Assembly: GCA_947470855.1 (NCBI GenBank)
Contig: CANIUQ010000007.1
Coordinates: 1-64,000 of the forward strand
Source of the DNA: Opitutia bacterium
GTDB lineage: Bacteria > Verrucomicrobiota > Verrucomicrobiia > Opitutales > UBA953
Reading direction: 5' to 3'
Length of the DNA: 64,000 nucleotides
Part shown: positions 43,582 through 48,626 of the stretch, piece by piece
Position numbering within the stretch: the first letter of the stretch is position 1
Layout of the letters: each line of letters starts with the position of its first letter
Made by a program: the position numbers and the translations under genes
The notes under the pieces: model-generated
Database searches by the model: none
Seen by the model: only the letters and a program-made list of their open reading frames with translations
What the model was told of the DNA's origin: nothing

Positions 43582-43604
43582 ATTCTTCTTCGATTTCAAA
43601 ACGT

Positions 43605-43633
43605 AAACCCGCCAACCCCGGCGGGTTTATTGT
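43605..43633. terminator. Terminator between rplI and the convergent pseudopilin gene
   Basis: A 9-bp stem AAACCCGCC/GGCGGGTTT with a six-base loop at 43605-43628. The T-rich flank on the plus side is ATTGTTT. It can act on both strands. Confidence 0.8.
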
Positions 43634-43640
43634 TTGGTGA

Positions 43641-46600
43641 TTAAAGATCCTGGGTGCCTAACCAACGGCAGGATAAAACAATAAATCTTCGACCGAGTAA
43701 GCGATTGATGGGTGAGTGTTCAGTGGATGAAAATTGAATCCATGGGAGTTGAGTTGAATCCACGTATTCAGGCGTTCGCTGAACAATCATTTCTAAAACA
43801 ACTGAAGCTCTTTGTCTTCCTTCTGCGAAACTTTCACCATAAGCACGAATGGTGAACGTGTCCGAGCGTGTGGCAATTTTAGGTCCGAGATTGCGGAGTA
43901 AATCTCCTTGGAAAAGACAACCCGCCGCACCGAATCCATTATGGGTACGTGGGCGATTCTCGTGATCCAAAACTTGAATACTACCAAAATAACATCCTGG
44001 GGGCATTCCCGATTGGCGTCCACTACCAGCCCCATAGTGCCAATGATGTGACAAAGAGGGATTAATGATCAATGAACCTGGAGGTGGCGTCGTGAATCGC
44101 GTGCCAAACGTTTTATCAGATCGAGCTAAACTGCTCTCTAGAGTGCCCGACCGGAATAGCCAGCGATAGTCATTGGCATTATTCGAAGCTGCGGAGGTTG
44201 CAGGGTAAGGGGTCGGCGTTTCGCTTGCTGTTGGGTTAAGAGGGTAAAATGAATTTGTGTAGCGTGCACCTAACTTTTTGGTGGGGCCGAGAAAGCGATT
44301 GATAAACTCATTTAACCCTAAAAAAGGAGTCCGTGGATTTTGGTTTTTAGGAAAGTCTAAAAATCTTCTTTGGTTCGGTGGGTACTCTTGATCCCGTTCG
44401 GTGCGCTGGTGGAATTGCCCGCGGGCTTTAATCTCTGCGACAATTGCTTGAGACAGCGCAGTGATTTCTTTTTCGGTTAGAGAGTTAAATCCATTCCAAT
44501 AACTGGATTGTCGGATATCCCAGATCGCTGGCTTTTGCCCCTCCCATATCTCACTGCGTGATAGAGGACTTTTTAACTGGGCTAAAAGAAAAACTCGCCA
44601 AGCCTCTGGCGAGGTAGAGTTAACATTAAAAGTCCCCTCACTCAGTACATAGCCAGCTAGGCGTCGGTAACCATCAGGAGGGTCGCCATTGAGATGGCGT
44701 TGACTAAAACCAGGTCGATTAAAAATAGCACTCGCCGCTTCAACTTGACTGGGTTGATAAAGACGAAGGTGTTGATTGAAGAAAGAGCGGCTCCCTTGAG
44801 CAAAGCTTTCCAGTGTTTCTTGAGTCGTTTTTCTTCTAACCGAATTATAATTTCCGTTTTTTAATTCCTGAAGTAGGGGAGCAGCTCCAGAAAAAAAGAA
44901 ACTATCCCAGAGTGCGTGATTGAGTAAAAAACTATTATCCGAAAAGGTGTGACCGCCTTGATAGGCTGGGATTCCATAAGTCCAGGATTTGTCCAACGGA
45001 CAGACGAGATTAGGAAATGAATTGCCTACGTTGTAGTAGGGAAACCAATCCCAAACGCTTAAGTTAGCATACATGAGTTGCCCCAAGGAGACGAGGGGTT
45101 GACGTGGAATACTTACAGGCGAAAAGCGGGAAACGCTATTTGCTTGATGAGAATATCCGCCCCACGCATTCCCGCCTTCAGGGTGAAGGGTTAAATCAAC
45201 TTGGAAAAAGTTACTCCAAGAAGACGTTGATCCACTTAACAGTAATTCATCTCCTCCGTAAATTTGCGTGCGTAAACTCGCACCACCGATGCCAGGCATT
45301 CCGTTTTGTGCCGCAGCTGTCGAACACTGGGCTAGCGGATTACTGAATAACCAAGGTGGATGACAAGCAGGAGTGGGCTGATTTTGGGCAACAATCCATG
45401 GACGTAAGCCTCGATCATAGGTAGTTTGGCGAACAGAATCAGCCACCCGTATTTGCGTATCAACCACAGCAATGACTGCTCCAGGTTTATCTTTTTCGAA
45501 TAGGGCATCGCGCAGACTGTAAACTGGGCCGATGACCACGGGGTTTGTTTCATTCCCCGGATCGCCAAAAAAGTCGCTGGGCTGTTGAGCAAACGCTGTG
45601 CCGACATTAATCATAAGGCCATAACTGGCTCGTGAATTTTTGCGCTCGGTGCCCAGAAACTCTTCAGTGTCCATGAGAGATCCAACCCGATCCTGCGCCC
45701 GATTCTGTTTCCATCCTGAATTAAGATAGAGCCAATGATGCCAGTAAGTATTCGGACGAATTCTTAGCCATGTTTGTATGGTATCTTGCGCCGTGAACCT
45801 TCTTAGAAGAAACCGTGTTCGTCCATCGGGGTTTCCTGTACTTTCCACGCACTGATAAGTTCTTAAATCCGCCCGTAATCCGCCCGTGAAGTAGAGTCCT
45901 CTTTCGAGTTTAACGATGATTGGCACAAGAGAAGGGGAGGAAATGGCAAGGGCTTCTTTGGCGGAGAAAACAGCAAATTCTCCAGGTTCGAGAACTGTTT
46001 CAGGAATGACGCAGGAAAAATTTTCAGCTTTTTTTGCATCTTCATTTTTTTGCATTTGAAAAATATCATCAATCGCAGCGCCCGTTGTTTCCCAGAGCGA
46101 GTTATTGGTATTGTTGCTCAAGTGGGATTTGAGGTAGATGCATAATCCATCGAGCAAAGAAAAACCCACGCGTGCGCCACAGCCTTGCACCCGAGCATCG
46201 GGTTCGACTGTGGTAGATGCCTTAAACTTTAATCTAAGGTCGAAGGGATTGTGTAAAACAATGACAGGTGTGGCCAAAATTTTTAGGGCATAATCCGCAT
46301 CAATAGTTTGTTTTTGCACAGAAAAAACCAAACTCAAGCGATGCAGAGCGGGCAGGTATGCACCGCGAACGGCTCGAGCCATAAATCGATTTTCTTTTCG
46401 TCCATTAACCCATCCCAGTGGATCGGGCGTACTACCTTCATTATCGAGATATTGAGCTGAACTCGAAGTGCTTCCACCATTGGGCCAATAGCCATAATCA
46501 AGATTGTAATTGGAGTTAGGATTTACGCCCAGAGAGGGACGATAGCCTCCTTGAAGAAACTGATCGGTATTGGGATAAAAGGATCGAGCTTCCAGAGTGG

Positions 46601-47873
46601 GTTGATTGCCCGCCCATTCGATTTCTTTATAGAGGCGATAGTAGTCGCGAACGAGATGCCAGAGCGGTCCGAGTAATCGGCGCCGTGTTCCTTGAGGACT
46701 AGTGGATAGGCCCACCTGAGGTAAAACAAGAGGGGATTCGGCAAGCGGTTGTCCCATTTCATCTTCTCGCAGATAAACGGGGGACCATGGTAAATAATGT
46801 GTTCCTGTGGTTCCCAGAAATCGTCCTGGGTTATTAGGATTTTTTTCGTGCATAGGCACCCAGACGCGTGGACGAGGATCAGGGGACTCAAGGGTGCCAA
46901 TTTTGCCCGCGGGGAATAATGGAAAACGCGAGCCCCTCGTTTTCTTCTGCGGATCTTGCTCTAGTGAGTTAGGACCCGTGTATATTTCAATAACATCGCT
47001 GGCACCCGAACCAAATCCCGATCGATCAAAATCTTCGTCATCCATTTCAAAGGCCAGTGATAGATCGCGGCGAAGACCGCCACGGTAACTGTCAGCGAGA
47101 ACACCCGATGCCCAAAGCGTGTGGTGGTGAAACTGAAAAAGAGGTACAGGGTTATCATCGGGCGTGGTGAGAATTGATTCTTGGGAAGAAAGGCGTGCTT
47201 TGACTCCTTCATCGCCAATCCAGTAAGCAAAAAAGCCTAAACTTTGATTCTTATCATCTGAAAAAGGTCTTTTGGGGAGAAGGACTTGTCCTTCACTATT
47301 TACACTACCAGCCGATTCCATCGAAGATTTTAAATCTGATTTTGTGGCGCGTGCCCTGACTAATAGAATCCATGAACCCCAATCTTCAGGGTTGTTTTGC
47401 CAAGGTGCCCATTGGCTCGGTAAATAGTCCTGCGTGTCGGCGAGGCTGTAAGATTGTGCTAAGATTCCACCAGAATTGTTTGAAGAAAGGGTAGCGGAAA
47501 TATTTTTTCCACTAATAAGCCAAGCTGGCGGTTCATTGGGTTTATCGGTTCGCCAAACTCCAGTCCAATAAGATTGGCCAATGAAATCATTAGAGGGGAA
47601 ATTTTCGGAGATGTTTTCTGGTGACGATGGGTTGGCAATCCCTGCGAAATCACCTGTGGCCGTGCTTCGCTGGTCTGGACCGGCCGTTTGTTGTAAATGA
47701 CCCAGAGCTAGCCGTGCGGCCATGAAAGCATGGAGTTTGGCTTGGGCTACATTCTTTGCGGTGACCAAACTTCTTGTTTCTAATGTCAGAAACGCTGACA
47801 GGGTTAAAAAACTTAAAATCAAAAAAGAAACAACGACGAGCGATAGCAATAAAGCAAAGCCCGTCCGTTTCAT
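43641..47873 (-). CDS. Giant GspK/PilX-like pseudopilin-type protein (1410 aa)
   Basis: A 1410-residue protein. The N-terminus reads MKRTGFALLLSLVVVSFLIL, a short basic leader, Gly-Phe prepilin-type cleavage site and a long hydrophobic helix without Glu5, as in GspK and PilX minor pseudopilins. The rest is mostly beta/loop sequence with many Trp, Pro and Asn. Near residues 1090-1110 a segment (LSEGTFNVNSTSPEAWRVFL) resembles the GspK N-V-N-T/S motif. The size is about four times that of GspK. It resembles, from memory, the Verru_Chthon cassette A proteins of Verrucomicrobia. It should be membrane-anchored and exported. The upstream 218-residue gene overlaps its start by four bases. Confidence 0.6.
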   Translation of the reverse strand: MKRTGFALLLSLVVVSFLILSFLTLSAFLTLETRSLVTAKNVAQAKLHAFMAARLALGHLQQTAGPDQRSTATGDFAGIANPSSPENISENFPSNDFIGQSYWTGVWRTDKPNEPPAWLISGKNISATLSSNNSGGILAQSYSLADTQDYLPSQWAPWQNNPEDWGSWILLVRARATKSDLKSSMESAGSVNSEGQVLLPKRPFSDDKNQSLGFFAYWIGDEGVKARLSSQESILTTPDDNPVPLFQFHHHTLWASGVLADSYRGGLRRDLSLAFEMDDEDFDRSGFGSGASDVIEIYTGPNSLEQDPQKKTRGSRFPLFPAGKIGTLESPDPRPRVWVPMHEKNPNNPGRFLGTTGTHYLPWSPVYLREDEMGQPLAESPLVLPQVGLSTSPQGTRRRLLGPLWHLVRDYYRLYKEIEWAGNQPTLEARSFYPNTDQFLQGGYRPSLGVNPNSNYNLDYGYWPNGGSTSSSAQYLDNEGSTPDPLGWVNGRKENRFMARAVRGAYLPALHRLSLVFSVQKQTIDADYALKILATPVIVLHNPFDLRLKFKASTTVEPDARVQGCGARVGFSLLDGLCIYLKSHLSNNTNNSLWETTGAAIDDIFQMQKNEDAKKAENFSCVIPETVLEPGEFAVFSAKEALAISSPSLVPIIVKLERGLYFTGGLRADLRTYQCVESTGNPDGRTRFLLRRFTAQDTIQTWLRIRPNTYWHHWLYLNSGWKQNRAQDRVGSLMDTEEFLGTERKNSRASYGLMINVGTAFAQQPSDFFGDPGNETNPVVIGPVYSLRDALFEKDKPGAVIAVVDTQIRVADSVRQTTYDRGLRPWIVAQNQPTPACHPPWLFSNPLAQCSTAAAQNGMPGIGGASLRTQIYGGDELLLSGSTSSWSNFFQVDLTLHPEGGNAWGGYSHQANSVSRFSPVSIPRQPLVSLGQLMYANLSVWDWFPYYNVGNSFPNLVCPLDKSWTYGIPAYQGGHTFSDNSFLLNHALWDSFFFSGAAPLLQELKNGNYNSVRRKTTQETLESFAQGSRSFFNQHLRLYQPSQVEAASAIFNRPGFSQRHLNGDPPDGYRRLAGYVLSEGTFNVNSTSPEAWRVFLLAQLKSPLSRSEIWEGQKPAIWDIRQSSYWNGFNSLTEKEITALSQAIVAEIKARGQFHQRTERDQEYPPNQRRFLDFPKNQNPRTPFLGLNEFINRFLGPTKKLGARYTNSFYPLNPTASETPTPYPATSAASNNANDYRWLFRSGTLESSLARSDKTFGTRFTTPPPGSLIINPSLSHHWHYGAGSGRQSGMPPGCYFGSIQVLDHENRPRTHNGFGAAGCLFQGDLLRNLGPKIATRSDTFTIRAYGESFAEGRQRASVVLEMIVQRTPEYVDSTQLPWIQFSSTEHSPINRLLGRRFIVLSCRWLGTQDL

Positions 47874-48526
47874 GGCACCAAAATTCGGTCTTCGATATTT
47901 TTTAAAACAAAAGAGGGTCCTTCAAAAGCAGGCGGAAGAATAAACCAGAATGAGCGAATGTCTTCCATTTGAAGCCAGCGGACTCCATTTTGTCGGGTTT
48001 CCGAATCGATTTCTCCTACCATCGAAAATCGTCCCTGACCATAAGTGGCATTTTTAACTTGAGGTCGAAACTGGATGGATTGTCCGCGAGTTAGAACTTT
48101 TTTCTGGCCAGGAAAATCAATCGCTACGGGTGCAGATGATAAATTGAATACATGAAAAATTCCGCCCTCTTGCTGGTAATTGGAATCCGATAATAGGTAT
48201 AATTTCGGTGACGGTGTTTCGGAAATAATTGCCAAAAAATTTTCTCCTGAACTGGGAACGGTAGCCGAAACCCAGGGCAACCATTCGACCGACTTTGATG
48301 GGTGAGGCTGAATGCGGTAGAGAGTTAGTTTATTTTCAGGGCAATGCACCGCAAAGAAGGGAGTGAATGAATGGGTATAAACGGAATGTTGTGTGATTTC
48401 TCCATGGTGGTCTTTGATGCCGATTTGTTTAGGATTTGTTCCAAAATACAGGGCTTTAATCTTAATGTTCGGGCTAGAGTGCGGGGTTAAGGCCAAGCCG
48501 AGGAGGAGGGTGCTGAGGGCAAACAT
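47870..48526 (-). CDS. Exported protein of unknown function, partner of the giant pseudopilin-like protein
   Basis: A 218-residue protein with a short N-terminal hydrophobic signal (FALSTLLLGLALTPHSS) and a beta-rich body (LTLYRIQPHPSKSVEWLPWV, FHVFNLSSAPVAIDFPGQ). No family or catalytic motif was recognised. Its last four bases overlap the start of the 1410-residue gene (ATGG/ATGA type overlap), so the pair is expressed together and probably works together. The N-terminus lacks a prepilin cleavage site. Confidence 0.6.
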   Translation of the reverse strand: MFALSTLLLGLALTPHSSPNIKIKALYFGTNPKQIGIKDHHGEITQHSVYTHSFTPFFAVHCPENKLTLYRIQPHPSKSVEWLPWVSATVPSSGENFLAIISETPSPKLYLLSDSNYQQEGGIFHVFNLSSAPVAIDFPGQKKVLTRGQSIQFRPQVKNATYGQGRFSMVGEIDSETRQNGVRWLQMEDIRSFWFILPPAFEGPSFVLKNIEDRILVP

Positions 48527-48626
48527 AGCAAGTCCAAGATAATTTCTTCATGAATCGCATAGACACGCTTTGATTCTGCCATTTTTCCCTTCATTAATTC
48601 CCTAAAACTTCTTAACCTGAGTAAAG

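Follow-up and report, generated by a model that had tools for sequence, protein, structure and literature searches.

Results

A giant prepilin gene and its partner between dnaB and rplI

The window (the whole stretch of DNA analysed here, 64,000 nucleotides from an Opitutia bacterium) carries two overlapping genes on its minus strand, set between housekeeping genes, with dnaB on one side and rplI and ssb on the other. Both reading frames are open and start with ATG, and the four bases ATGA are common to the two, which bears out the two-gene unit with a four-base overlap proposed in a preliminary description of this DNA. The features of the unit are as follows.

43641..47873, minus strand: gene for a giant Glu5-less prepilin (1410 aa) with a large insert, predicted to be of GspK class from the ORF, its homologs and the fold of a homolog
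47859..47873, minus strand: prepilin leader MKRTG, residues 1-5; the first codon carries the ATGA overlap
47682..47858, minus strand: predicted N-terminal pilin helix, residues 6-64 (TIGR02600 positions 1-60, NF037980 positions 2-67; helix 6-65 in the homolog model)
47196..47237, minus strand: first GspK-like motif, GFFAYWIGDEGVKA, residues 213-226, near-invariant in homolog sets A1 and A3
44652..47195, minus strand: large insert, approximate, residues about 227-1074, from the secondary structure of the homolog model mapped to the window protein
44598..44636, minus strand: second GspK-like motif, GTFNVNSTSPEAW, residues 1080-1092, near-invariant in homolog sets A1, A2 and A3
43659..43868, minus strand: predicted C-terminal pilin-sheet strands, residues 1336-1405, RSDTFTIRAYGE...VLEMIVQR...GRRFIVLSCRW (strands 1053-1063, 1070-1085 and 1108-1118 of the homolog model)
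47870..48526, minus strand: gene for a cognate exported partner (218 aa), predicted to form two tandem beta-sandwich domains, from the ORF, a model and conservation of the unit
43603..43630, no strand assigned: GC-rich hairpin between the giant gene and rplI, which converge here; likely a terminator common to both

No pilin gene and no Verru_Chthon B, C or D gene adjoins the giant, whose neighbours are rplI, ssb and dnaB. The earlier remark that the other cassette genes are not adjacent stands, with the amendment that cassette-like G and H pilins exist away from the window, on contig C20. Encoding together with GspH-I-J, as is typical of GspK, is absent from the window and is found for a homolog in the related genome G094. 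Unlike partners from other loci, those encoded beside dnaB begin with a signal-like stretch that is very short and lacks Lys and Arg (window 48466-48551), and ATGAAGAAA begins in another frame at 48551; the start site or export route of these partners may be unusual.

Leader, motifs and family scores of the giant protein

The giant begins with MKRTG followed by FALLLSLVVVSFLILSFLTL, a short basic leader with Gly at -1 and Phe at +1, and residue 5 of the mature protein is Leu rather than Glu (MKRTG, then FALLL). The prepilin leader and Glu5-less helix read from the sequence earlier are thus borne out, and the GspK-like N-V-N-S segment reported with them is present as the second motif. Within the first motif, YWIGDEGVKA (residues 217-226) resembles by eye both the DE[ST]xK of canonical GspK and the NINTA-bearing segment of TIGR02600.

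Neither protein of the pair reaches any curated family, and Pfam and PHROGs were empty for both. Two of the families that the preliminary description had named for comparison match the giant at its N-terminus only and below their cut-offs: TIGR02600, the family of Verru_Chthon cassette protein A, scores 12.3 bits over 60-66 residues (cut-off 332.3) and the T2SS GspK family NF037980 scores 11.5 bits over 66 residues (cut-off 130). Profile-profile alignments likewise span only the N-terminal 69-75 columns, with E-values of 8e-8 to TIGR02600 and 1e-4 to GspK, and a PDB sequence search with profile A1 returned nothing relevant. By the families' own criteria the giant is a member of neither, and at 1410 aa it lies far outside the 300-470 aa expected of GspK and the 429-471 aa of canonical GspK proteins in its genus. 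Beyond the N-terminus its kinship with GspK is suggested by predicted structure. Matches to T2SSK (PF03934) in relatives were dropped because they proved, on reading the regions, to be mostly helix-hairpin-helix false positives in dnaE-like proteins of 1250-1290 aa. This weak matching of PF03934 to DnaE-like proteins of the order (for example at L074:4805-8629) is a trap for automated GspK annotation.

Predicted structures of the two proteins

The fold of the giant was modelled with AlphaFold on a full-length homolog, L231 (1123 aa, about 28% identical to the window protein), from an alignment of 41 sequences that included the window protein (pLDDT 76.8, pTM 0.84). The model has a 60-residue N-terminal helix, strands, a large mixed region and three long C-terminal strands. 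On structural realignment it matched XcpX (5vtm_X; Z 12.9, 225 of 259 residues, 3.0 A) and ETEC GspK (3ci0_K; Z 11.9, 249 of 280 residues, 3.4 A), in both cases from L231 residue 35-43 to the end of the model, and the third-ranked match was a weak one to a lamin Ig-like domain (Z 3.9). Plain Foldseek gave no match under E 0.19 and left GspK unranked, as we would expect of a small fold split by a large insert. According to the model, L231 is a complete GspK fold with both the pilin domain and the K alpha domain, so the structure prediction supports the earlier assignment of the giant to the pseudopilins.

Mapped onto the window protein, the model describes a modular pilin, that is, a pilin scaffold carrying an inserted non-pilin module. 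The predicted insert of ~750-850 residues lies between the two K-type motifs, which are about 850 residues apart in the window protein and, by eye, about 105 apart in E. coli GspK. It includes a predicted Ig/lamin-like beta-sandwich at residues about 505-760, which corresponds to the weak lamin match; the insert yielded no domain whose ligand specificity is known, and no beta-solenoid is evident in the L231 model. The partner, also modelled from 41 sequences (pLDDT 90.6), is predicted to be all-beta with two tandem sandwiches. Its best structural matches are the two-domain ectodomains of PepT2 and PepT1 (Z 12-14), followed by domain 4 of cholesterol-dependent cytolysins, AlgF and transthyretin (about Z 7-9). 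These matches point to tandem Ig/transthyretin-like sandwiches rather than to a function, with no catalytic fold indicated, and Pfam searches of the 41 partners gave stray matches only (DUF4397, E 0.013, in one member).

The giant and its partner recur as a unit

Relatives of the giant (E <= 0.001) occur in 82 of 95 related genomes and relatives of the small protein in 31. One full-length ortholog is 80% identical to the window giant, and many others share about 50% identity with it; this conservation, together with the spread through related genomes and the recurrence of the two genes as a unit, argues that the pair is not a product of chance. Within the genus, units recur at three sites, namely the dnaB/rplI site of the window, a site between a chromate transporter and recJ-secDF with either a single unit or two in tandem, and a site beside glnS/gltX-like genes. 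The window genome has a second giant and partner, split over contigs C28 and C35, and the ends of these contigs (L048 and L049) share the translated stretch SYAGTMTNSYNTNTG.

With profile searches, relatives turn up in other families of the order as well, as many as 115 first-look candidates in a single genome of 4.6 Mb, and a scan of genome contigs found 80 loci, including ones in Akkermansiaceae, Cerasicoccus, Coraliomargarita and Rubritalea records. Cerasicoccus arenae and Opitutae bacterium BS10 are among the relatives with such units. Three genomes (G092, G071 and G081) have roughly 68 to 115 first-look giant GspK-like candidates each, and several of their giants that were read (for example L151, L152, L154 and L155) adjoin sulfatase-, mannosidase- or acetylesterase-like genes. 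In distant relatives as a whole, neighbours include sulfatases (6 of 82, a raw count without matched background), GH95 and GH2. The preliminary description had suggested that the giant may be a tip component specific to this lineage; the GspK-class reading finds support in the model, while the family extends across the class and is often multicopy.

A profile built from window-type partners also finds the partners of distant giants and grew to 64 members on iteration. Of 40 giants whose flanks could be read, 38 adjoin a homologous partner, which lies upstream in 12 cases and downstream in 26 and usually overlaps the giant gene. The small protein, previously described as of unknown family, indeed belongs to no curated family, yet it represents a recognisable unnamed family that stands beside almost every giant. 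One of the two exceptions is a giant at a dnaB locus (L171:6971-11239, contig C2 of genome G042), and G042 has paralogous units with a partner elsewhere in its genome. Evolutionary distances among giants and among their partners correlate (r 0.92 overall, 0.66 among distant pairs), and none of 2000 permutations was as high. Since the partner switches sides and the pairing is nevertheless kept, we infer a working association rather than chance neighbourhood.

Glu5, gene order and companion pilins

Glu5 is absent from all 53 giants (0/53) and present in all G-, H-, I- and J-type pilins examined at four loci of relatives, as well as in four pilins of the window's own genome. In the complete genome of relative G094 the genes form an operon G-H-I-J-giant-partner, with a giant of 998 aa, an order that matches gspG-H-I-J-K of E. 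coli. In the window genus, G-H-I-J lie separately, beside accA, and the giants are dispersed. In the own genome, contig C20 opens with the G and H orthologs and contig C18 ends in a truncated accA; a search of the genome's contig starts and ends found neither I nor J. If the order seen in G042 holds, the cut in accA at the end of C18 and the position of H at the start of C20 place I and J in the assembly gap. At the tip of type IV filaments an H-I-J-K complex ends in a capping subunit without Glu5, and modular pilins are known (PMC10191384). The absence of Glu5 and the GspK fold most likely place the giant at the distal end of a filament.

The assembly machine encoded in the window's genome

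The preliminary description had looked to a prepilin peptidase and a secretin elsewhere in the genome, and both are there, along with PilB, PilT and PilC. The genome encodes E5-type pilins and one detected secretin, of Amuc_1098 type (975 aa), and proteins of the Amuc_1098, Amuc_1100 and Amuc_1101 families (NCBIfam) lie in one locus. A PilB-PilT-PilB-PilC cluster stands beside coaE (L258:6604-12344). PilT exceeds its curated cut-off (444.5 bits against 319.1), and the other machine proteins match below theirs with E-values of 3e-7 to 5e-184 (3e-7 to 3e-109 for the Amuc-type matches). With a PilM-like protein, the Amuc_1098-type secretin, PilB, PilT, PilC and prepilin peptidase, the genome has the components of a MUL2-type machine. 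Two near full-length assembly ATPases flank PilT, and this tandem pair recurs in many relatives. A phmmer search of two proteins of the Amuc locus against the PDB found nothing, and no giant read in this genome adjoins machine genes.

In the genus, most of the larger genomes have two secretins, and those read carry a canonical T2SS with a 429-471-aa GspK that scores E 1e-17 against NF037980. In the window's own genome (96% complete) six T2SSE-type ATPase matches were found, of which three were placed, and a T2SS may lie in the unassembled part. That giants are kept alongside a single secretin of Amuc_1098 type favours a pilus machine.

Relation to the Verru_Chthon cassette

True members of TIGR02600 turned up in the class, but in other orders than this one, and the best TIGR02600 score in the own genome is 17 bits. 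At a TIGR02600 locus with adjacent A, B, C and D genes (L162), D matches GspH (3e-13), C matches GspJ (2e-5) and A matches GspK (3e-5); B matches more weakly, with XpsI, a GspI-type protein, at 1e-3 and also PilV. On this sequence evidence Verru_Chthon A-D would be a K-I-J-H tip set. Protein A, hitherto unexplained, is thereby placed in the GspK class; D and C resemble GspH and GspJ, and B, less strongly, GspI-type minor pilins. The papers searched make no mention of Verru_Chthon. Directly upstream of the L162 cassette is a 2473-aa ORF (L162:11886-19307), and L163 has an 823-aa exported-looking ORF in the equivalent position.

A relation of the window giant to Verru_Chthon A had been suggested earlier and holds in part: by sequence, the N-terminal 60-70 residues point to distant kinship, and at 12.3 against 332 bits the giant is a distant relative of cassette protein A, not a member of its family.

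Discussion

Our results make it probable that the giant is a Glu5-less, GspK-class modular tip pilin that acts with a cognate partner on a MUL2-type pilus machine, and we predict that it works like a tip pilin of the GspK/ComZ type. We envision a scenario in which prepilin peptidase cleaves the giant between G5 and F6 and the mature protein takes the distal position in a type IV filament, above the I- and J-type minor pilins, capping I/J/H. The insert of ~750-850 residues in the GspK frame would then point outward as a recognition head, which the small two-sandwich partner probably binds as a chaperone, cap or scaffold. The filament would most likely be built by the Amuc_1098-1101 (MUL2)-type machine, with its Amuc_1100-like and PilM-like proteins and with G and H pilins supplied from contig C20, and retraction by PilT would pull bound polymer to the cell. 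Duplicated giant and partner units could serve as exchangeable tips for one machine.

A surface polysaccharide is our favoured candidate ligand. The case for a glycan is circumstantial and draws on the sulfatase and glycoside hydrolase neighbours, on the proposal that a MUL2-type pilus attaches to fucose-rich glycans in Akkermansiaceae (PMC13174399), and on a verrucomicrobial isolate in which a pseudopilin is among the few alginate-induced genes (PMC13274419). An excess of pseudopilins in the phylum has been reported, with 67 PulG-like copies in one genome and no function given (PMC13274419). As a tentative extension, one retractable MUL2-type pilus might be served by a library of giant GspK-class tips, each glycan-specific and with its own chaperone or cap, as the pilus counterpart of the SusCD libraries of Bacteroidota.

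Because the fold is closest to GspK and XcpX, and the G094 order is that of gspG-K, the unit could instead form the tip of a T2SS-like pseudopilus, in which the insert would select hydrolases or sulfatases in the periplasm for the filament to push out through the secretin. The sulfatases and glycoside hydrolases near units in some relatives would suit such cargo, and larger genomes of the genus do carry a second, canonical T2SS. That system has its own GspK, however, so the giants cannot simply be taken for its tip, and the one secretin found in the window genome is of Amuc_1098 type and is accompanied by PilT; we regard the secretion reading as rather unlikely. The presence of PilT would also fit a DNA-uptake pilus, in which the giant would be a DNA receptor like ComZ of Thermus, a tip pilin that resembles GspK and has a large domain inserted in it (PMC6561018). 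The homolog model shows no evident beta-solenoid, however, and a generic DNA receptor is difficult to reconcile with paralog numbers of several per genome in the genus and tens in relatives; this role is hardly likely at all. That no pilin gene adjoins the giant in the window genome would fit a membrane-anchored surface or periplasmic protein with a borrowed prepilin-like leader that never polymerises; the complete GspK fold of the homolog model, including the sheet from the C-terminus, and membership of the G094 operon with G-H-I-J speak against it and make it very improbable.

Verrucomicrobiota are major degraders of algal and host polysaccharides. The tip-pilin reading bears on how they catch these polymers: the accessible part of PMC13174399 leaves the MUL2 tip receptor unnamed, and the giants provide a defined class of candidates. 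For these the fold is predicted and a cognate partner is at hand, and the paralogs can be counted and tested one gene at a time.

Several known systems bear comparison. The window's genome resembles the Akkermansia Amuc_1098-1102 (MUL2) locus (PMC13174399) in having the Amuc_1098, 1100 and 1101 families in one locus; the giants are encoded apart from it, and we found no published link between giants and MUL2. The giant shares with TIGR02600 protein A (about 1300 aa) the character of a GspK-like giant prepilin of Verrucomicrobiota but reaches only 12.3 of the 332-bit cut-off and lacks adjacent B-D genes, and no counterpart of the small partner was noticed in the two TIGR02600 loci read. The modular pilins PilB and PilC of Streptococcus sanguinis likewise carry a grafted module in a tip complex (PMC10191384), whereas the module of the giant is a different one, on a GspK-type scaffold and with a cognate exported partner. 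A precedent is ComZ of Thermus thermophilus, a GspK-like pilin that also bears a large inserted domain and is argued to be a tip receptor (PMC6561018). In ComZ a beta-solenoid of about 380 residues is inserted between the two final strands (PMC6561018), whereas the insert of the giant is larger, has no evident solenoid and sits between the K-type motifs. The closest likeness is to GspK/XcpX (NF037980; 3ci0, 5vtm), with which the giant shares the basic leader, Gly at -1, the lack of Glu5, two K-type motifs, the whole-chain fold of the homolog model and, in one relative, a position as the last pilin gene after G-H-I-J. It differs in being about four times longer, with an insert of ~750-850 residues and a dedicated two-sandwich partner. 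Set against these systems, what we predict to be new is a giant tip pilin of GspK class that is modular, comes with a cognate partner and has multiplied in Verrucomicrobiota.
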